Both the position numbers and the translations under genes were made by a program. A stretch of DNA of 46,198 nucleotides from Acidobacteriaceae bacterium (GTDB taxonomy: Bacteria; Acidobacteriota; Terriglobia; Terriglobales; Acidobacteriaceae), in assembly GCA_003131315.1 (NCBI GenBank), contig PKUV01000167.1:1-46198 (forward strand), written 5' to 3'. Numbering within the stretch: position 1 is the stretch's first letter; the number at the start of each line of letters is the position of its first letter. The notes under the pieces were generated by a model. That model was not told the DNA's origin, made no database searches, and saw only the letters and a program-made list of their open reading frames with translations. Shown piece by piece: positions 5,202-46,128 of the stretch.

Positions 5202-6157
5202 AGGCTGGTCCTCATCCGCTGCGCGGGTACTTCTATATCGGGAGTGCGGCCCTTCTGTGGGGTGTCTCGGCGACACTGGGTCGCGCGGCATTCACCGGGC
5301 ATCTGTTGCCAGGCGGGGCGTCGCTTAGCGCGATTGATCCGCTGATCCTGTCGCAAAGCCGTGCAACGTTGTCGCTGGCGGTGCTGTTGCCGGTGCTGCT
5401 GGCACGGAGAGGAGCGTCCGCGCTGCGCGTTCCGGGGCGCGACCTGGTGCGGTTTTTCCTGCTTGGAATTCTGGGAGTCGCGGCGTCGAACTATCTCTAC
5501 TACCTCGCGATTCAACGAACGAACGTGGCGACGGCCATCATCCTGCAGTACACGGCGCCGGTTTGGGTGCTGCTCTATACGGTGGCGCGCGGAGCGCAGC
5601 GGCCGTCGCTGCGGAGAAGCGCGGCGGTGGGACTGGCCGTGGTGGGTTGCGCGCTGGCGGTCGGCTTTGTCGGCTCGGGCGGCTTCCGCATGGATGTGGT
5701 CGGAGTCACGGCCGCACTGCTGGCGGCATTCTCCTTTGCGTTTTACAACGTCGGCGGACACAGAGTGCTGGCGCGCTACGACCGCTGGAAAGTGCTGCTG
5801 TGGGTGTTGGTGGCTGCTTCAACATTCTGGATCTTCGTGAATCCCCCATGGAAAATTGTTGCGGCTCACTATGGCCGGCAGCAGTGGGGATTCATGCTGG
5901 TGTTTTCGCTGGTTTCCGTGCTCGGGCCATTTTCCTTTTACTTCGCCGGGCTGCAGCATCTGGAGCCGACTCGCGCGATCGTCGCGAGTTGCCTGGAGCC
6001 GGTATTCAGTATCATGATCGCGGCGCTTGTACTGGGCGAGTTACTGCGGCCGATGCAGACGGTTGGAATCGTTCTGGTGCTGGTAGCGATTGTGCTGATC
6101 CAGTTGCCGGAACGGGCTGCTCGGGGCGAGGAGTTGGTGGTCGAGCCGATCGAGTGA
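5198..6157 (+). CDS. EamA/DMT-superfamily permease
   Basis: 319-residue integral membrane protein with about ten hydrophobic helices in two EamA halves (about 10-145 and 160-300). The second half contains the conserved GPFSFYFAGLQHLEPTRA segment and LEPVFS. Members export metabolites or amino acids; the substrate is unknown. It starts at a GTG overlapping the osmC-like stop by four bases. A GC hairpin repeat begins at the base after its stop. Confidence 0.87.
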   Translation: MKAGPHPLRGYFYIGSAALLWGVSATLGRAAFTGHLLPGGASLSAIDPLILSQSRATLSLAVLLPVLLARRGASALRVPGRDLVRFFLLGILGVAASNYLYYLAIQRTNVATAIILQYTAPVWVLLYTVARGAQRPSLRRSAAVGLAVVGCALAVGFVGSGGFRMDVVGVTAALLAAFSFAFYNVGGHRVLARYDRWKVLLWVLVAASTFWIFVNPPWKIVAAHYGRQQWGFMLVFSLVSVLGPFSFYFAGLQHLEPTRAIVASCLEPVFSIMIAALVLGELLRPMQTVGIVLVLVAIVLIQLPERAARGEELVVEPIE

Positions 6158-6212
6158 GTGGAGGGACGGGCGCCTCGCCCGTTCAGCCGGGCGGGGACGC
6201 CCGGCTCTCCAC
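6158..6212. repeat. GC-rich palindromic repeat filling a convergent intergenic gap
   Basis: 55 bp bounded by GTGGAG and CTCCAC, with nested GC hairpins (GACGGGCG..CGCCCGTTC and GCCGGGCG..CGCCCGGC). It fills the whole gap between the EamA and MFS stop codons with no spare bases. Related copies lie at 1-15, 11325-11380, 12568-12589, 28845-28890, 44900-44945 and 46083-46128. It could act as a bidirectional terminator. Confidence 0.75.
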
Positions 6213-7529
6213 CTACTCCAGCCTCTTCCCCTTCGTCTCCGGCAACTGCGTCGCCATCAAACTCGCCAGAAAAAAGGCTGCGCCGCACAGATAGAAAGCC
6301 CAGCTTAGTCCCTTGGCCTGGCCGACCCGTCCAATTACATAGGGGGCGATGGAACTCAGGGTGCGCGCGCCGTTGTAGGTAAAGCCTAATGCGCGCGCCC
6401 GCACACGCGTGGGGAAGATCTCGCTACCGATGATGCCCGAGCCGGAGAAGAATCCCGTTCCGAAGAAGGCGACAATCGTGCCCAGTACGAGCAGCATTGC
6501 CTGCGAACGCGCCATGGCGTAGAGAGGCACCAGAAGGGCGGCGGCAAAGGTGTAGAGCATGAAAGATTTGCGGCGGCCAAGATGGTCGGCGACCCAGCCG
6601 AAACTGGCGTATCCGGGAAACATGCCAAACAGGTTGAGCACGATGAGCAGTGCGGTGGTGCCCATGACGCCGAAACCGCGCCCGCCTTGTGCGACTGGAA
6701 GGGAGAGATAAGGAGGAATCCAGGTGAACAGTCCCCACCAGCCAAACATGCCGAAGAAGTTGAGCAGGAGAAGGACGATGGTGCTCTTGCGATAGGGCGC
6801 ACGGAAAATGAGGGAGAAGGAATCCTCTGCCTGAACATCATGGGCCAGAACGTCGTGGGCCGGAACGCCGCCGTCGTCCTTCTGTTGTGCCTGTGCCACG
6901 CGTTCGGAATCGGTTGCCTGGCGATGGTGGTCCAGCCACATCTGCGATTCGGGCACCCGGCTCTGTATCCAGAGCGTAACGATGGCGGGCAGAATTCCGA
7001 CGAAGAACACCATTCGCCAGTTGGCGTAACGCAGAACGATGCCCGCTACCAGCGCGGCCAGCGCATAGCCGATTGCCCAGGAGCTCTGCACCACTGAAAT
7101 CGCCTTGGCACGCAGTTCATCGGGCCAGGTTTCTGCGACCAGGGTGGCGCCGGTGTTCCACTCGCCTCCCATCCCTAGTCCGAGGATGAAACGAAACACC
7201 GCCAGCATGAGCACGGTGGTCGAGAGGCCGGAAGCGAACGAGCAGATCGAGTACGTCAGGATGCTGAGCATCAGGGCGCGCTTGCGTCCGATGCGGTCGG
7301 CGAGGAAGCCGAAAAACACGCCGCCGATGCCGGAGGCGAGAAGGGTGAGTGTGTACAGAAGGCCGGAGGTCGCCTTCGACATGCCGAGATCGCGCATCAC
7401 GGATGTCAGGACCAGCGCGTAAAGCATGGCGTCAAAGGCGTCGAGCATCCAGCCGAGAGAGGCCGCCAGCAAGGTGCGGCGCTGTCCGGGGTTCGCTTGC
7501 TTCAGGAGTTGGATGGGCCCGATGGCCAT
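6213..7529 (-). CDS. MFS transporter
   Basis: 438-residue major facilitator with 12 predicted helices. The N-terminal LGWMLDAFDAMLYALVLTSV and the loop motif GFLADRIGRKRAL (between TM2 and TM3) are typical of the sugar/aromatic-acid symporter groups; a second copy (GWVADHLGRRKSF) lies after TM8. A hydrophilic central loop (about 200-240) contains a VPAHDVLAHDVQAED stretch with short internal duplication. The substrate cannot be inferred. It converges on the EamA gene and its start faces away from ribF. Confidence 0.88.
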   Translation of the reverse strand: MAIGPIQLLKQANPGQRRTLLAASLGWMLDAFDAMLYALVLTSVMRDLGMSKATSGLLYTLTLLASGIGGVFFGFLADRIGRKRALMLSILTYSICSFASGLSTTVLMLAVFRFILGLGMGGEWNTGATLVAETWPDELRAKAISVVQSSWAIGYALAALVAGIVLRYANWRMVFFVGILPAIVTLWIQSRVPESQMWLDHHRQATDSERVAQAQQKDDGGVPAHDVLAHDVQAEDSFSLIFRAPYRKSTIVLLLLNFFGMFGWWGLFTWIPPYLSLPVAQGGRGFGVMGTTALLIVLNLFGMFPGYASFGWVADHLGRRKSFMLYTFAAALLVPLYAMARSQAMLLVLGTIVAFFGTGFFSGSGIIGSEIFPTRVRARALGFTYNGARTLSSIAPYVIGRVGQAKGLSWAFYLCGAAFFLASLMATQLPETKGKRLE

Positions 7530-11324: not shown

Positions 11325-11380
11325 ATGGAGGGACGGGCGTCCTCGCCCGTCCTGCCGGGCGGGGACGCCCGGCGCTCCAC
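11325..11380. repeat. GC-rich palindromic repeat
   Basis: Nearly the same sequence as the repeat at 6158-6212 (TGGAGGGACGGGCG ... GACGCCCGGCGCTCCAC). It lies in the gap between the divergent ygfZ and dehydrogenase genes. Confidence 0.75.
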
Positions 11381-11440
11381 CGACTAGTAATTGAGGTCGC
11401 GAGTTTAATAATGCTTCGCGGCTGTGCTAACGTTGCGAGC

Positions 11441-24000: not shown

Positions 24001-24144
24001 TGTTTACTCTTAAGTTATTAACCCGTGTTTACCACTACCCCCTCCCCCCTATCTATTGGAATCATAGGGTTAGGCGGAAATTCCCGCAAAATCTTTGAGT
24101 TTAAAGGACTTATATGGAAAATATTCCGGAATAAGGACTTAGCT
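24001..24144. repeat. Left arm of the inverted repeat bounding the accessory segment
   Basis: 24056-24144 (89 bp, AT-rich) matches the reverse complement of 27539-27627 with only 6 mismatches. The outer TGTTTACT...GTTATTAACC block (24001-24023) also pairs with 27662-27684 at lower identity. The arm contains the palindrome TATTCCGGAATA and a direct repeat AAGGACTTA on either side of it. 23971-24000 holds nothing recognisable. Confidence 0.85.
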
Positions 24145-24632: not shown

Positions 24633-25277
24633 ATGCCTTCAGATTTCAGCATGGCACTAAAACGATTTATGAGAAACCGTAATCGCCTCTTGACCTATGT
24701 TGGTGCATTTATCGTGTTCGGGACGTTTGTTGTGAAGGATGGTTTGCGGGAACATCTGAGGGATGCAGCCGGTTCGATAAGCGCCGCAAGCAATGTGTTT
24801 GCAATTCGTGAAGACAACATAGAGACACGATTGGAGCTAGCGGATCTCAAGAAAAATCTCGCGGACAAGGACGCGGCCAATCGTTCGTGGTCGGACGTTC
24901 GCGTCGTTCAAACCAAGTCTCAGCAAATGTACTACTCGCTCGGCGCTGTAGCCTACCTCATTGAAACAACACACGACGAAGAGGATGTGCCACGGATCAC
25001 CGTGCTCGACCAAGAGCTCACCAAGATTCGGTTCGGTAGTCTTGATCTAAACATGTCCCCATCGACGGTCAGTGCTTTAAGCTTGAGCGCTTCTGCCTTG
25101 GAGTTACAACTCGCGCAATTTGAGGATGAAGTGATGCAGCATGCTCGACTTAAGCTTCAACGAAAGCAGGAACTCTATGACATCTTTACGTGGGTCAGCT
25201 ATGTGCTGTATGCAATCGGCTGGGGTCTAGGTCTGGTTGGGAAACTCTATGGCGTTGACGGTTTCAGTACGACATGA
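24633..25277 (+). CDS. Two-TM membrane protein of unknown function
   Basis: 214 residues I do not recognise. One hydrophobic helix near the N-terminus (LLTYVGAFIVFGTFVV, about 19-34) and one near the C-terminus (YVLYAIGWGLGLVGKLYG, about 190-207) flank a charged, largely helical region of about 150 residues, which therefore lies on one side of the membrane. GGAGATGAATA precedes the ATG. Codon use is more AT-rich than core neighbours. Inside the inverted-repeat-bounded segment beside a nuclease gene on the opposite strand; a defence or sensor role is speculative. Confidence 0.7.
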   Translation: MPSDFSMALKRFMRNRNRLLTYVGAFIVFGTFVVKDGLREHLRDAAGSISAASNVFAIREDNIETRLELADLKKNLADKDAANRSWSDVRVVQTKSQQMYYSLGAVAYLIETTHDEEDVPRITVLDQELTKIRFGSLDLNMSPSTVSALSLSASALELQLAQFEDEVMQHARLKLQRKQELYDIFTWVSYVLYAIGWGLGLVGKLYGVDGFSTT

Positions 25278-25540: not shown

Positions 25541-26272
25541 TTAGGTGTCGAGCATGTCCCAATCGTAACCAAGAACCCAACGAAGCGCGGAGAGTTTGCC
25601 GCTGAGCATACCCCACTCGAAATCGCCTCCGCGGGCAAGGTTCTTTTTGCCAAAGCGCTTTTCCGCAGCACGCTTTGCCTTGAGCATTCCTCTAATTATG
25701 TGCTCGGGTGTCCCTCGCTCCCGATAGAACTCAGCAGGCATCTTCCGGCCATACCAGACCTTCGTCTCGCACTCGTCTTCGGCAGCCAGAATCTCCCCGA
25801 CGCTTCGAATGGGAATGTCGGTGAGGTCGTACTTGCGCTGCAACGTCAGTTTGCGGCGGAGCATGCGCGCGAGCTGAGGCTTTTCCCAATAACGAATTTT
25901 GAATGACGGCCGGTTGTTCTTTCGGTACGCGTCGAGGTATTCCTTCGCCGGATTGCTCAGGAAATTCGAGACGATGAACAAGGCGACGTCGGGCCGTTCG
26001 GCTTCGGCCCATGCAAGCAGGTTTTGGAGTTCTTTCGGCGGAACTCCCCTCTTGAAGTGCTTGCAGTCGACAAACCATCGTTCGAAGTGCTGACTGCCAT
26101 CAGGCTCAACCCGGGGATGGTCGCACACGATATCGCGGCCTTTATCGGCTGGACTGGTCGCGAGTCCCGTTCCTTTGCGCCAATCGACGTTGACGAAGCC
26201 CATTGCGTGCAGCAAGTCGGCGCAGAGCCCCTCAAAATCGGAGCTCGAAAGCCCATCAAAGCTGATCGCCAT
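25541..26272 (-). CDS. PD-(D/E)xK restriction-endonuclease-like protein
   Basis: 243 residues with an Mrr-like nuclease core: GLSSSDFEGLCADLLHAMGF (7-26), then GRDIV (D47) and WFVDCKHFKRG (D69-C-K71), giving D-x21-D-x-K. The following SNFLSNPAKEYLDAYRK helix is typical of Mrr-cat enzymes. The C-terminal 100 residues (Arg/Lys-rich) may be a specificity or DNA-contact region; no methyltransferase partner is present. Mrr-type enzymes cut foreign or modified DNA. It lies inside the inverted-repeat-bounded segment, opposite in strand to the two-TM protein. Confidence 0.78.
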   Translation of the reverse strand: MAISFDGLSSSDFEGLCADLLHAMGFVNVDWRKGTGLATSPADKGRDIVCDHPRVEPDGSQHFERWFVDCKHFKRGVPPKELQNLLAWAEAERPDVALFIVSNFLSNPAKEYLDAYRKNNRPSFKIRYWEKPQLARMLRRKLTLQRKYDLTDIPIRSVGEILAAEDECETKVWYGRKMPAEFYRERGTPEHIIRGMLKAKRAAEKRFGKKNLARGGDFEWGMLSGKLSALRWVLGYDWDMLDT

Positions 26273-27538: not shown

Positions 27539-27684
27539 AGCTAAGTCCTTATTCCGGAATATTTTGCATATAAGTCCTTTAAAGTCAAAGATTTTGCGGG
27601 ATTTTTTGCCTAACTCTATGATTCCAAAAGACCGAAGCAAGAGTTTTTTTCAGTACCCATAGGTTATTAACTATTAAGTAAACA
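27539..27684. repeat. Right arm of the inverted repeat bounding the accessory segment
   Basis: 27539-27627 is the reverse complement of 24056-24144 at 83/89 positions. 27662-27684 (GGTTATTAACTATTAAGTAA...) pairs with the left outer block. The following 27685-27772 has no gene. Confidence 0.85.
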
Positions 27685-28844: not shown

Positions 28845-28890
28845 GCCGAGCTGCGCTCGGCTTGGACGGGCGAGGGCGCCCGTCCCTCCA
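28845..28890. repeat. GC-rich repeat, identical 41-bp core to 44900-44940
   Basis: GCCGAGCTGCGCTCGGCTTG and GACGGGCGAGGGCGCCCGTC are consecutive hairpins. All 41 bases 28845-28885 recur exactly at 44900-44940. Located upstream of lpxD. Confidence 0.85.
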
Positions 28891-28894
28891 TGAG

Positions 28895-29374
28895 CTATGA
28901 CTCGAACAGCGTGACCTGACGCGTGTCGGGTTGGCCACCCTTGCGGCGGCGGTTCGCTGCACCGATGACGGCGAGCACCGTCACCGACGTCAACGCCTCG
29001 CGAGGCACGAACACCCGCTGTGTGTTCGAGCGCAGGTCGGGAGGGTTCATCAGAAATCCTTCGGGGGGATTCTGCGTGAGGTCGTTGGGCAGGATGCCTT
29101 CAATCACTTCGCCGTCTTTGAACTTCAGGCGCACCCACAGGCCTTCGGTCCGGGGGCGGGTGGTGAAAGTCTTGCGGAGCATCAAGTCGGAGTCGGAAAA
29201 CTCACGGACAAAATAAACGGATTTGATGTCTCGCAGGTCGATGGCGACAACGTTGCCGGAAGTGTTGAGCAATTCGAGCTTGCCATCCACCACAAAGTTG
29301 GCGGGAGCGACGAAGCCGCTGACCGAGTCGCGGTCGTGTTTCCGCACGATCACTTTCTTGTGGGTCGAGGACAT
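28895..29374 (-). CDS. Conserved hypothetical protein
   Basis: 159 residues from the ATG at 29374. Soluble and mainly beta-strand: VIVRKHDRDSVSGFVAPANF, LELLNTSGNVVAIDLRDIKS, VRLKFKDGEVIEGILPNDL, then RVFVPREALTSVTVLAVIGA. The repeated strand-turn pattern suggests a small PilZ- or SH3-like barrel, but I cannot name a family. Convergent-type position upstream of lpxD suggests no shared job. Confidence 0.65.
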   Translation of the reverse strand: MSSTHKKVIVRKHDRDSVSGFVAPANFVVDGKLELLNTSGNVVAIDLRDIKSVYFVREFSDSDLMLRKTFTTRPRTEGLWVRLKFKDGEVIEGILPNDLTQNPPEGFLMNPPDLRSNTQRVFVPREALTSVTVLAVIGAANRRRKGGQPDTRQVTLFES

Positions 29375-36052: not shown

Positions 36053-36222
36053 TCCGTGCAAGTTAACAGATACGGCCGATGAGACGAGCGAAAATAAAAC
36101 GGGCAGAAAAGTCGGATCATAGTGCGGGGAACGGCGCGGAGAATCCCGCAATCTCCGGTACGGACTTTATGCTCTCGATTGTGGAAGCGCATCAACCCCG
36201 AAAGAATGGGAACGTCATCAAG

Positions 36223-37182
36223 ATGGATTCTGGACTGAAGGCGCAACAGGAACTGGGAAAAATCGAGGAGCAGATCACGCGACTGCAGGCGCTGGAGGGG
36301 CAGAACGCGGAAACGCTCCGCCAGATCCAGCAATTGCACGAACGGGTGAACGACCTTCGCCGCGAGATTTCTTCGCACATGAACGCATGGGAGCGCACGG
36401 AACTGGCGCGTCATCCGCAGCGTCCCTACACGCTGGATTATATCGAGCGCATTTTTACCGATTGGAGCGAGATTCACGGGGATCGCGGCTTTCGCGACGA
36501 TCCGGCGATTGTTTGCGGGATGGCTCGCTTTCACGGTGAGGAAGTCGTCGTTGTGGGCCAGCAGAAAGCGCGCGACGCGAAACAGCGCGTGTATCGAAAC
36601 TTCGGCATGTCTCACCCGGAAGGGTATCGAAAAGCGCTGCGGGTGATGAAGATTGCGGAGAAATTCAAGCGGCCGATTTTTACTTTCGTGGACACCGACG
36701 GCGCCTATCCCGGACTGCACGCCGAAGAGCGTGGTCAGGGAGAAGCCATCGCCCGCAACCTGCTGGAGATGGCGCGGCTTGAAGTGCCGATCATCGCGAC
36801 CGTGATTGGCGTCGGCGGCAGCGGCGGGGCGCTGGCGATTGCGGTGGCCGACCGCGTGTTGATGATGGAAAACTCGGTTTACTCGGTGATTTCGCCGGAG
36901 GGGTGCGCGTCGATCATGTGGCGCGATGCCAGCAAAAAAGGTCTGGCGGCGGAGGCCATGAAGATCACCGCGAAAGATTTGAACGAACTGGGCTGCATCG
37001 ATGCCATCATCCCGGAACCTGCCGGAGGCGCGCATAAGGACCATGCCCAGGCGGCGGAATTGCTGGACGCGGCGCTGCAGCAGCATCTGGCCGCGTTAAA
37101 GCGACTGCCGGTCGGCGAACTGCTTGAAACCCGCTATCGAAAATTCCGCAACATGGCGCAGTTCTTCCAGGTGGAAGCGTAA
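36223..37182 (+). CDS. accA: Acetyl-CoA carboxylase carboxyltransferase alpha subunit
   Basis: Transfers carboxyl from carboxybiotin to acetyl-CoA, first step of fatty acid synthesis, with AccD. From the ATG at 36223 the 319 residues match AccA length; the frame is open back to 36079 but the extension has no family similarity. Conserved stretches: RPYTLDYIERIFTDW, GDRGFRDDPAIVCGMARF, MSHPEGYRKALRVMKIAEKF, DTDGAYPGL and GVGGSGGALAIAVADRV. Follows dnaE. Confidence 0.93.
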   Translation: MDSGLKAQQELGKIEEQITRLQALEGQNAETLRQIQQLHERVNDLRREISSHMNAWERTELARHPQRPYTLDYIERIFTDWSEIHGDRGFRDDPAIVCGMARFHGEEVVVVGQQKARDAKQRVYRNFGMSHPEGYRKALRVMKIAEKFKRPIFTFVDTDGAYPGLHAEERGQGEAIARNLLEMARLEVPIIATVIGVGGSGGALAIAVADRVLMMENSVYSVISPEGCASIMWRDASKKGLAAEAMKITAKDLNELGCIDAIIPEPAGGAHKDHAQAAELLDAALQQHLAALKRLPVGELLETRYRKFRNMAQFFQVEA

Positions 37183-37223
37183 GAGCAGCGCTGGCTTTCG
37201 GGCGTACTCAAGACCGGGGCCTT

Positions 37224-37470
37224 ATGAAGAAAACATCGGCAGTTAAGTCTCGCGGATTGCGTCCCTCGAAAGACCCGCGGAGCGAATACCGGTTTGACTA
37301 TGCGAAAGCTCGCCCCAACCGATTCGCGCGTCGCGCGGGCGAAGTCCGTTGTTGTACTGCTTGCCCCTGATGTTGCGAAAGTGTTCAAGCCGGGTGAGTC
37401 GGTCAATGACGCACTGCGGGCGATCCTGAAGGCGGTACCACGGCGAAAAGCTGCAACGAGTTCGAACTGA
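37224..37470 (+). pseudogene. Frameshifted small antitoxin-like gene
   Basis: From ATG 37224 the first frame encodes MKKTSAVKSRGLRPSKDPRS then EYRFDYAKARPNRFARRAGE. One extra base near 37345 shifts the continuation (SVVVLLAPDVAKVFKPGESV then NDALRAILKAVPR) to the next frame, which ends at 37468-37470. Together the two halves resemble small antitoxin-like proteins often found near toxins. No partner toxin gene lies beside it. Confidence 0.6.
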
Positions 37471-37489
37471 AAGAGACTGGCGCACTCTC

Positions 37490-37546
37490 TCGCCGCCATA
37501 AGTTCCGACTGCCATCACCAGGTTCTGGCTGCCTTCAACGCGCGCC
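37490..37546 (-). pseudogene. Duplicated 57-bp fragment of hom
   Basis: Matches 38762-38818, inside hom, at 49/57 positions and in the same orientation. Translated on the minus strand both give ARVEGSQNLVMA(V/T)GTYGGE. Most differences are synonymous. The surrounding 37471-37600 holds no gene. Confidence 0.75.
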
Positions 37547-37625
37547 GAGGCTGCAGCCTCTCGAGGACCGCCGCGCTCGTGAGGGGGCCCCCCTGAAACG
37601 TATACTTGCCTGAATTTCTCCCGCA

Positions 37626-37641
37626 TGATATCATGATATCA
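37626..37641. promoter_or_regulatory. Palindromic operator of the FitAB pair
   Basis: TGATATCATGATATCA is a perfect 16-bp palindrome 21 bp before the antitoxin ATG. A TATACT -10-like hexamer is at 37601-37606. Probable site for FitA autoregulation. Confidence 0.6.
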
Positions 37642-37662
37642 ATTTAGCGCTGGGAGGATGCC

Positions 37663-37911
37663 ATGGCCCAACTCGTCGTCCGCAATATCGAGAATGCCGT
37701 GAAGGCCCGATTGCAGCGCCGTGCGCGGCGGAACGGCCGCAGTATGGAAGAGGAAATACGGGATATCCTGCGCAGCGCCGCGGTTGAAGAACCTCTTCCA
37801 ACCGGCGGGTTAGGGACCGAAATCGCTGCCTTATTTACCAAGGTCGGGATCGAGTCCGATATTCCTGAGCTGCGGGGACACAAAGTTAAGCCCGTCCATT
37901 TTGAATCATGA
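37663..37911 (+). CDS. FitA-like RHH antitoxin
   Basis: 82 residues. MAQLVVRNIENAVKARLQRR (1-20) and RNGRSMEEEIRDILRSAAVE (23-42) are the FitA/VapB ribbon-helix-helix DNA-binding domain; the Pro/Gly tail (43-82) should wrap the PIN toxin. GGGAGGA before the ATG. Its stop overlaps the toxin ATG (ATGA). The palindrome at 37626-37641 is its likely operator. Confidence 0.88.
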   Translation: MAQLVVRNIENAVKARLQRRARRNGRSMEEEIRDILRSAAVEEPLPTGGLGTEIAALFTKVGIESDIPELRGHKVKPVHFES

Positions 37912-38324
37912 TCATTCTGGATACGAACGTGCTTTCGGCGCTGATGCGCCAGGCGCCCGACCAGAACGTCGTCACTTGGCTCGACCGGCAACCTCGGACA
38001 TCGGTCTGGACCACTTCGGTGACCGTCTTTGAAGTCCGGTTCGGACTGCAGATTCTGGCGACGGGAAAGCGGCGAACTCTGCTGACCGAGGCGTTTGAGG
38101 AACTTCTCGTTAGAATTGGTCAGCGAGTCGTCACGTTTGATGTTGCGGCTGCGCAGCAGGCAAGTGACCTAATGGCAGCGCGGCACAAGAGAGGCCGCCC
38201 CGGCGATCTCCGCGATACGATGATTGCGGGGATTGCGCTCGCGCAGCACGCCACGCTTGCAACCCGCAACACTGTGCATTTCGAAGATGCTCCAATTCCG
38301 CTCGTCAATCCTTGGACGATCTAA
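37908..38324 (+). CDS. FitB/VapC-like PIN-domain toxin
   Basis: 138-residue PIN ribonuclease. Metal-binding acids are D5 in MIILDTNVLSALM, E42 in VFEVRFGLQ and D103 in GRPGDLRDTMIAGIAL; NTVHFEDAPI is the C-terminal motif. VapC-type toxins cut specific RNAs when the antitoxin is lost. Intact. Confidence 0.88.
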   Translation: MIILDTNVLSALMRQAPDQNVVTWLDRQPRTSVWTTSVTVFEVRFGLQILATGKRRTLLTEAFEELLVRIGQRVVTFDVAAAQQASDLMAARHKRGRPGDLRDTMIAGIALAQHATLATRNTVHFEDAPIPLVNPWTI

Positions 38325-38364
38325 CGGTGCCGCCGGCGTTTTGCTAGGAATGAAGATCCTCTTC

Positions 38365-39684
38365 CTACAGTATCGGCAAGTGCAAGCACGGCTGCACCAT
38401 GAAATCCAGCGAGTTGATTTGCTGTAGCGCCTGTTCCACCAGCGAGGCCTTGCATTCCTCCAGCGTAATCAGAAAGGGCAGGTGTGATTTCGGGCAGGCC
38501 GGTTTCTGCAGCACCGAGTCGATGTTGATGCCGCAGTGGGAGAGAATTGTGGCTAGGCTGGCGATGATGCCCGGCCGGTCCTTCACCAGAAAGCGCAGAT
38601 AGTGCTTGGTGGTGAACTCGGCGGTGACGGTGGGCGTTTTCTCGAGCGGCTGTCCGGCGTAACTCATCCCGGCTTGCTTGGCGCGAGCAATGGCCAGAAT
38701 GTCGGACACGACCGCGACGGCGGTTGGATGTCCACCTGCGCCGTGGCCTCCAAAGACGGTTTCGCCACCGTAAGTTCCGGTCGCCATCACCAGGTTTTGA
38801 CTGCCTTCGACGCGCGCCAACGGCGATGAGAGTTCGACCAACGCCGGCTGGACCGCGGCAAACAAGCAGTCACCTTTCGGCTCCGCTTTCAACTCGGCCC
38901 ATGAAATCTGGCGAATGGTGCAGCCAAGCTGGTTCGCGTATTCAAAATCAACCGAGTCGATGGCTGAGATCGAGCGCGCCACGATGCTCTCAGGTCTGAC
39001 GTTGCAGTGCAGTCCGACTCGCGCCAGGATGGTGAGTTTGGCCCGCGCGTCCAGGCCGTCGATGTCTTCCGTCGGATCGGCCTCGGCGAAGCCCAGCTTC
39101 TGCGCCTCCCGCAGAGCAGTGGCGAAGGGAATGCCGTTGCTCTCGATCTGGCTGAGAATGTAGTTGCAGGTGCCGTTGAGAATGCCGCAGATCTTGAACA
39201 GTTCATCGCCGGCCAATCCCTCATGCAATCCGGAAATCACCGGCACGCCGCCCGCTACCGACGCGCCAAAATGGATCTGCTGTTTCATCCGCCGCGCCAG
39301 GCCGATCAACTCAGGACCGCAACGCGCGATCAACTGCTTGTTGGCGGTGACCACGGATTTGCCCGACTCGAGCGCGCGCCGGATCCAGTCTTCGGTGGGC
39401 TGGAGGCCGCCCATCACCTCGACCACGATCTCCACGTCGGAGGATAGAACATCGTCGATATTCTCCGTCCACTGCACCGAGGACGGAAGCCAGTCCACTT
39501 TTTTCCGCGCCACGTTGCGATTGAGGACATGCGTCAGGCGCAGGTGGGTGTTGGATCGCTCGCAAAGAATTCTTGCCACGGAACTCCCGACCGTACCGAA
39601 GCCGAGCAGAGCCACGTTGCAGTTTTGTGCGCCGTCGTTTTTTGCACCAACGGCAGTTGAACCGAGTTTAGAAACAGCTGTCAT
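38365..39684 (-). CDS. hom: Homoserine dehydrogenase
   Basis: Reduces aspartate semialdehyde to homoserine for threonine and methionine. N-terminal LGFGTVGSSVARIL (27-40) binds NAD(P); EVMGGLQPTEDWIRRALESG and the GGVPVI and GFAEADPTEDIDG segments are family hallmarks; the C-terminal ACT domain begins at KDRPGIIASLATILS (about 360) and probably binds threonine. 439 residues. Monocistronic on the minus strand, with a GATAAT -10-like hexamer at about 39728. A partial second copy lies at 37490-37546. Confidence 0.95.
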   Translation of the reverse strand: MTAVSKLGSTAVGAKNDGAQNCNVALLGFGTVGSSVARILCERSNTHLRLTHVLNRNVARKKVDWLPSSVQWTENIDDVLSSDVEIVVEVMGGLQPTEDWIRRALESGKSVVTANKQLIARCGPELIGLARRMKQQIHFGASVAGGVPVISGLHEGLAGDELFKICGILNGTCNYILSQIESNGIPFATALREAQKLGFAEADPTEDIDGLDARAKLTILARVGLHCNVRPESIVARSISAIDSVDFEYANQLGCTIRQISWAELKAEPKGDCLFAAVQPALVELSSPLARVEGSQNLVMATGTYGGETVFGGHGAGGHPTAVAVVSDILAIARAKQAGMSYAGQPLEKTPTVTAEFTTKHYLRFLVKDRPGIIASLATILSHCGINIDSVLQKPACPKSHLPFLITLEECKASLVEQALQQINSLDFMVQPCLHLPIL

Positions 39685-39762
39685 TCCATCTCCCGTGCGG
39701 ACGGAACCTTTTTCCCGCCTCGCTCTATTATCACCGAAGTAGGTATAGGCTGGGCCGCCCGC

Positions 39763-39786
39763 CGACTTGCGATTCGACTCCGGTGA
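39763..39786. repeat. 24-bp exact repeat upstream of a small gene
   Basis: CGACTTGCGATTCGACTCCG plus GTGA occurs here and again at 39976-39999 inside the following gene. Confidence 0.8.
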
Positions 39787-39871
39787 TTTTTGTCACTGAC
39801 AGTTCGATGGTTACCGTGATTCAATTTCTATAGAGTTTCCAAGGCACTTTCCGTATTGAAAGGAGAGAGCT

Positions 39872-40159
39872 ATGCAATTCCACCTGGAAACAGACGAGCT
39901 GAAACTGCTTGCGAACGTCTTGTTAGAACAAGATCCCCGGCGGTACAACGAACTGCTGAAAAAGGTCATGGCTCGCGACTTGCGATTCGACTCCGGTGAA
40001 CTCGAACAAACAGCAGAGATCCTCGCTGGCAAGAAGCGCAGCCTTAAGGATGAAATCGCCCGGCAGCCGGACGCCGCGCTGAAGATGGAACTACAGCGGC
40101 AGCTAGCGCTGCTGGAACGGGTACTGGAGAGGGTCAACGAGGCCTGTGTCATGTTCTGA
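39872..40159 (+). CDS. Small hypothetical helical protein
   Basis: 95 residues: MQFHLETDELKLLANVLLEQ (1-20), a charged middle and a leucine-rich amphipathic helix near the C-terminus (ALKMELQRQLALLERVLERV). No signal or transmembrane segment. AAAGGAGAG is an excellent ribosome-binding site. Function unknown. Bases 39976-39999 duplicate its own upstream region. Confidence 0.7.
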   Translation: MQFHLETDELKLLANVLLEQDPRRYNELLKKVMARDLRFDSGELEQTAEILAGKKRSLKDEIARQPDAALKMELQRQLALLERVLERVNEACVMF

Positions 40160-40516
40160 AGGCTGTCCACGCGGCGGCCCTGTGCCCCGCCCTTGTTTTT
40201 TTGAAGGGTGAAACTGCACGGTCGTCTCCCGCGTGGGATTTCTCGCTGACTCCTGCAGTGCCCTCGTCCATAGAGTGCACCGATGATCCCCATCACCCAC
40301 CCTTTTCGCAAAGTGCGCGAAAAGGATGGGGCACCCGGGGTTTCTTGTGCGCGTCACCAGCTACGGTGATAATTCTCACTGCGCGCGGGTCGCGCGGCGA
40401 ATACGCTTGGTGCGGCATCCGGCGTTCGTCTGATGCTGCACGTTTGAGATCGCTAGGCTCGTGCGTAGGACCTTCCGCCTGGCACGAATTCTTCGCGCGA
40501 GGAAAGGAGGCACGTC
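40160..40516. repeat. Intergenic stretch with one hairpin repeat
   Basis: Only the CACCCACCCTTTTCGC...GCGAAAAGGATGGGGCACCC hairpin (40290-40336), a copy of 25423-25463, was recognised; the rest shows nothing. Confidence 0.65.
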
Positions 40517-44899: not shown

Positions 44900-44945
44900 G
44901 CCGAGCTGCGCTCGGCTTGGACGGGCGAGGGCGCCCGTCCCCACA
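44900..44945. repeat. GC-rich repeat identical to 28845-28885
   Basis: The 41-bp core (GCCGAGCTGCGCTCGG then GACGGGCGAGGGCGCCCGTC) is identical to the copy upstream of lpxD. It sits between the convergent korB and alcohol dehydrogenase genes. Confidence 0.85.
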
Positions 44946-44951
44946 CGAGCG

Positions 44952-45971: not shown

Positions 45972-46082
45972 AGCTTCTTCCTTATGAATTTTGGTTGATG
46001 GAAATGCTGACGGCAATAAAGCGCCCAGCAATGAGATGAGCGAGGATGCGGCGAGGACTCAGGCTTCAACCGCGCTTGTTCG

Positions 46083-46128
46083 TGGAGCGCCGGGCGTCCC
46101 GCCCGGCTGGACGGGCGAGGACGCCCGA
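46083..46128. repeat. GC-rich palindromic repeat
   Basis: GGAGCGCCGGGCGTCCCGCC and GGACGGGCGAGGACGCCCG belong to the same family as 6158-6212; the remaining bases to 46198 show no gene. Confidence 0.65.

Follow-up and report, generated by a model that had tools for sequence, protein, structure and literature searches.

The window, that is, the whole stretch of 46,198 nucleotides analysed here, contains 57 bp copied from the interior of the homoserine dehydrogenase gene (hom); the copy lies outside that gene, in the spacer between hom and accA. It is proposed, with a probability of about 0.8, that this short copy was pasted by illegitimate recombination into an accA-hom spacer of variable content, where it is now decaying without function.

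The repeat and its surroundings

Ungapped comparison of the fragment with the matching segment of hom gives 49 identities over 57 positions (86%), in direct orientation and with a spacing of 1272; the best match found anywhere in the window for 200 shuffles of the 57 bases was 32/57. A search of the organism's own 6.0-Mb assembly with 37224-37662 returned the hom segment as the sole non-self match (E = 8.9e-12), with no third copy of the fragment listed, and comparison of the 150-kb contig with itself recovered the same repeat (E = 7.6e-11), with 0 matches in one mononucleotide-shuffled contig. At the protein level, the only matches in the assembly were hom and the fragment. The repeat is thereby confirmed as real, and the original prediction of a decayed duplicate of part of hom is borne out. 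The fragment spans about 19 codons' worth of hom, inside the Homoserine_dh domain, and contains no intact coding unit and no complete domain; it is most likely a decaying partial duplicate, ordinary of its kind.

Table 1. Features of the accA-hom locus, with positions in the window.
Feature	Position	Strand	Basis or sequence
accA, acetyl-CoA carboxylase carboxyltransferase alpha	36079..37182	+	Pfam PF03255, E 4.8e-138
Small ORF with a frame break, antitoxin-like by eye	37224..37470	+	DNA matches in congeners
Ectopic copy of an internal hom segment, 57 bp	37490..37546	-	hom sense reads ARVEGSQNLVMAVGTYGG
TGATATCATGATATCA stretch 5' of fitA; also 5' of fitA in G207	37626..37641	.	Sequence
fitA-like ribbon-helix-helix antitoxin	37663..37911	+	Pfam PF22513, E 2e-16
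fitB-like PIN-domain toxin	37908..38324	+	Pfam PF01850, E 3.1e-13
hom, homoserine dehydrogenase, C-terminal ACT domain, 439 aa, intact	38365..39684	-	Pfam and NCBIfam
Matching segment inside the surviving hom	38762..38818	-	hom sense reads ARVEGSQNLVMATGTYGG

The copy lies in the gap separating the convergent genes accA and hom, with a broken small ORF on its accA side and a toxin-antitoxin pair on its hom side (Table 1). The identity of hom is given by Pfam (PF00742, E 1e-54; PF03447; PF01842) and by NCBIfam (PRK06349, 405 bits against a cut-off of 205). The neighbouring pair is arranged as in FitAB/VapBC-type systems, with a ribbon-helix-helix antitoxin followed by a PIN toxin and an overlap of the two ORFs at 37908-37911; PADLOC returned no match for FitA or FitB up to E 0.01. 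Upstream of it, the segment 37617-37645, which contains TGATATCATGATATCA, is a 29-bp match with the congener G207, where it also precedes fitA, and promoter-like hexamers occur at 37606-37634. The TGATATCATGATATCA stretch is a probable FitAB promoter or operator. Neither frame of the broken small ORF matched Pfam up to E 1.

Both neighbours of the fragment consist of DNA with counterparts elsewhere in the genus, the broken ORF on the left being shared with G147 and the FitAB upstream stretch on the right with G207. A check for more hom-like bases beside the fragment, suggested in the original prediction, revealed little or nothing overall. When the flanks were aligned locally to the matching part of hom, they did no better than shuffled sequence (right P 0.99, left P 0.51; 500 shuffles each), and anchoring the extension at the fragment ends yielded no gain on the left (P 1.0) and a marginal signal on the right (P 0.10, 150 shuffles). 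One gapped alignment reaches about 30 columns further on the right side and the protein search match over the fragment covers 37483-37551 (23 residues, 83%), which leaves some doubt about how sharp the ends are. Inspection of the ends by eye demonstrated no microhomology.

The accA-hom spacer across the genus

In the 16 genomes of the genus that have both genes on one contig, the present one included, accA and hom are convergent neighbours. The spacer between them ranges from about 6 to 3111 nt, is no longer than 55 nt in 8 of the 16, and contains FitAB, another ORF, or almost nothing; the site is therefore variable within this acidobacterial genus. Of 23 congeners, 6 have FitAB, or what is left of it, next to accA and/or hom: the whole pair is found in G207 and G179, fitA is present in G208 and G211, G127 keeps the 3' part of fitB, and G147 has a 68-bp fitB tail beside accA with no such hom adjoining. 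In G165, an ORF of more than 1 kb takes the place of FitAB in the spacer, and the FitAB match lies on another contig.

The fragment itself was not found in any genome searched outside its own. Among 24 genus genomes, the own one included, matches at the fragment's query positions occurred in 12 congeners, each inside hom. At most 18 candidates were scored per genome in this search, which did not return the hom segments of G207, G208, G211 and G212 that a separate comparison shows, so the absence of the fragment rests mainly on a comparison of 113 relative loci. In these loci, many of them overlapping and covering the accA-hom spacers of all 15 tabulated congeners (the set excludes L120 and the loci of the own genome), a fragment-type match occurs in 75 and a second one in 0 of 113. 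A wider search of 200 family genomes, with three candidates scored per genome, gave 12 genomes matching the wider query, and those rows at the fragment positions outside the own genome lie in hom, with G146 assigned on the hom-like bases beside it alone. An exact 30-base pattern derived from the fragment had no match in viral contigs, and neither did 37471-37616 against plasmids and phages at E 1e-5.

Since FitAB or its remnants hold this site in congeners in which the searches found no fragment, the pair belongs to the site independently of the fragment, and it probably predates the hom copy. The position of FitAB between the fragment and hom had been correctly noted in the original prediction, which took the pair as now lying between a remnant and the surviving gene; its presence at the same site in those congeners qualifies that picture. 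An insertion of FitAB into an old hom is rejected for the same reason. The fragment was likewise considered as a target-site duplication of FitAB, an explanation that is rejected taking into account that it is an internal piece of hom and that the 3' end of hom is intact beside FitAB.

Relatives of the broken small ORF also lie beside accA in other genomes: in G147 (86% over 213 bp), in G212 (96% over 99 bp, where the contig ends), in G211 (82% over 45 bp) and, as a 25-bp trace, in G210. The G147 relative looks frame-broken too, by eye. An apparently intact relative is found in locus L011 at 1473-1754, with no match in Pfam up to E 1 and none in NCBIfam. G147 (L045, G147:C88) retains accA and its downstream genes, but a hom of this type was not found next to accA, and the protein search matched only a 32% relative on another contig.

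Divergence and origin of the copy

With respect to its own hom, the fragment has six of eight differences at third codon positions (P = 0.02 against one third). The statement in the original prediction that most changes are synonymous is thus correct as a pairwise count; the conclusion drawn from it, that the fragment diverged under coding constraint, finds no support once the changes are assigned to one side or the other. Part of the divergence is due to hom, on which selection acts, and a synonymous excess can thus come from the functional gene. The reference used for this assignment was G165, the congener whose hom has the highest nucleotide identity to the own one (0.896). Against it, the own hom alone differs at four of the fragment sites (19, 22, 49 and 52), all synonymous, and the fragment alone differs at sites 10, 37, 38 and 39, which correspond to two third positions and a two-base change, at the first and second positions, of a Thr codon. 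The two bases altered in this codon are identical in 17/17 congeners compared, a count that excluded the family genomes outside the genus (G003, G005, G026 and G076), which were kept in the tree. Two of four fragment-side changes at third positions is the chance level (P of at least 2 = 0.41, with few sites and some polarisation uncertain). With G210 as the reference, which groups with G165 and the own hom on the hom tree, hom carries sites 19, 22 and 37 (all synonymous) and the fragment sites 38, 39, 49 and 52, site 10 being unresolved; the fragment again has two of four changes at third positions and the same two-base Thr change.

Neutral decay is not rejected by four fragment changes over 57 free sites, set against four hom changes over some 18 third positions (P = 0.10), although from a duplication in the own lineage it predicts about 12 fragment changes (a hand calculation, 57 x 4/18) and 4 are seen. 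In kind, the changes on the fragment are those expected without constraint, an agreement on few sites that does not amount to proof, because 57 bases can prove neither constraint nor its absence. The fragment itself matters little; its lesson is that synonymous changes contributed by a living parent can be misread as constraint on a pseudogene fragment.

In a base-by-base comparison with 21 relative hom genes, the highest identity to the fragment is that of G165 (51/57), followed by G200 and G215 (50) and by the own hom and G127 (49); the 13 loci from named records entered this comparison only in part as separate rows. The codon ACT is common only to the fragment, the own hom and G165 when all 22 hom rows are considered. 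Six of the 23 congeners (G193, G209, G028, G213, G147 and G093) gave no hom of this type in the protein search and so have no row in the comparison, and the tree omits G202, whose incomplete hom has N at the site. When 39 placements of the fragment on the hom tree (21 genes) were evaluated, the best were the G215 and genus-base branches (lnL -16320.67), from which the placements on G165 (-16320.83) and on the own hom (-16320.89) are indistinguishable. The own branch lies within 0.22 lnL of the best one, with an AU value of 0.69, and the fragment is thus not firmly away from its own hom. The AU test rejects ten of the 39 placements at 0.05, among them the terminal branch of each of the four genomes that belong to the family but not to the genus. 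These comparisons make a hom of this genus, own or congeneric, the most likely source and speak against a donor from outside it. Relatives of this hom occur in 13 named records, all of them MAGs; their names are Terriglobia, Terriglobales, Acidobacteriaceae or Acidobacteriales, and several carry fen, bog, palsa, groundwater or depth labels.

Given that the tree placement does not separate them, duplication of the own hom and transfer from a congener are both possible. The latter, in which a short piece of hom from a different species of the genus would have gathered its changes as coding sequence, in the donor, ahead of its arrival, is unlikely, though more probable than the other alternatives. 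It would agree with the closer match to G165, with the shared ACT codon, with a placement on G165 that is 0.06 lnL better than that on the own branch and with the shortfall of fragment-side changes, which gives a mild lean towards a later arrival. Against these points, the likelihood gap to an origin in the own lineage is negligible, two of the fragment-specific changes are non-synonymous and fall in the codon whose two bases are the same in 17/17 congeners, and nothing nearer than 51/57 appeared among the relatives compared. The comparison with the hom genes of relatives that the original prediction called for therefore makes G165 the nearest by count, without allowing the tree to tell own from congener. 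The prediction of a second or horizontally acquired hom loses its first part, as neither the flanks nor the protein search points to another complete gene; its second part, taken as a foreign origin within the genus, can be neither demonstrated nor dismissed from the tree. That the fragment is the last remnant of such a second gene is very improbable: the direct orientation and the marginal similarity on the right would suit it, but the flanks, which belong to the ORF shared with G147 and to the FitAB upstream stretch shared with G207, hold no clear hom-like sequence, and in 8 of the 16 genomes a gap of only about 6-55 nt separates accA from the end of the single hom.

An artefact of assembly has to be weighed too, since all 13 named records with relatives of hom are titled MAG and the own assembly consists of 194 contigs. 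Such an error is extremely improbable, because DNA corresponding to each flank is found at this site in congeners and a mis-join of identical reads would not be expected to yield a copy with 14% divergence. It is scarcely credible, finally, that the fragment is a functional element, either through read-through RNA from the plus strand that would pair with the hom mRNA, to which it would be 86% complementary over 57 nt, and tune hom, or through an effect on FitAB expression. The fragment-side changes bear no sign of constraint, the RNA fold is weaker than that of most shuffles (z = 1.30; 179/200 shuffles fold at least as well), and Rfam at gathering scores gave no match in 36800-40400. A conserved regulatory element is rejected, as the fragment was not found in congeners. 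The fragment is most likely without function.

Proposed route and other repeats nearby

Recombination into the spacer would have copied DNA from within hom to a site just upstream of a resident FitAB pair, in the own lineage or with a piece coming from a very similar congeneric hom. This could have occurred by two routes. In one, a short single strand would be copied in at a microhomology or during end repair, as a templated insertion. In the other, FitAB and part of hom would be duplicated in tandem, and a later deletion, removing the first FitAB together with most of the additional hom, would leave a direct piece of hom upstream of FitAB, as seen. Partial gene duplication can leave a gene fragment, and the present case is similar in that an internal piece of a gene has been copied alongside it in direct orientation and is decaying; with only 57 bp left, the original extent of the duplication cannot be told. 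Double illegitimate recombination, in which DNA segments are integrated by illegitimate recombination at both ends, has reportedly been described in Acinetobacter baylyi, as a title states. That is an experimental system in another phylum, whereas here junction microhomology is not shown and competence is only conjectural. A literature search on short-patch double illegitimate recombination found no paper.

In one study (Genome Biol 2010, PMC2884548), small variable intergenic segments of bacterial genomes are attributed to illegitimate recombination. The fragment resembles those segments in being short and intergenic, in not being a known mobile element and in having illegitimate recombination as a likely source; it differs in that strains within a species were compared there, whereas here the source gene is recognisable, 1.3 kb away. 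The case also documents the convergent accA-hom spacer as a variable site in an acidobacterial genus.

Other repeats were observed in the window. An exact 24-bp direct repeat links 39763-39786, in the spacer upstream of hom, with 39976-39999, within a 95-aa ORF (39872-40159). It is present in 4 of 128 loci examined, all from the own genome, a restriction that says little given that blastn matched the ORF itself in none of 12 congener loci. That the 57-bp fragment and the 24-bp copy together mark the hom neighbourhood as a minor hot spot where DNA is copied locally in this lineage is an improbable suggestion; if true, both could be templated short-patch insertions, and the surroundings of hom would be a natural record of that process. 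An inverted 93-bp repeat, 92% identical, is found at 24052-24144 and 27539-27631, about 3.4 kb apart; it flanks several ORFs (e.g., 24633-25277 and 25541-26272) and may represent the ends of a mobile or composite element. Finally, a family of short, GC-rich, partly palindromic repeats of the GGACGGGCG...CGCCCGTCC type, reminiscent of REP elements, occurs at 28845-28895, 44900-44950, 46082-46127, 6157-6213 and 11326-11381, with more along the contig.
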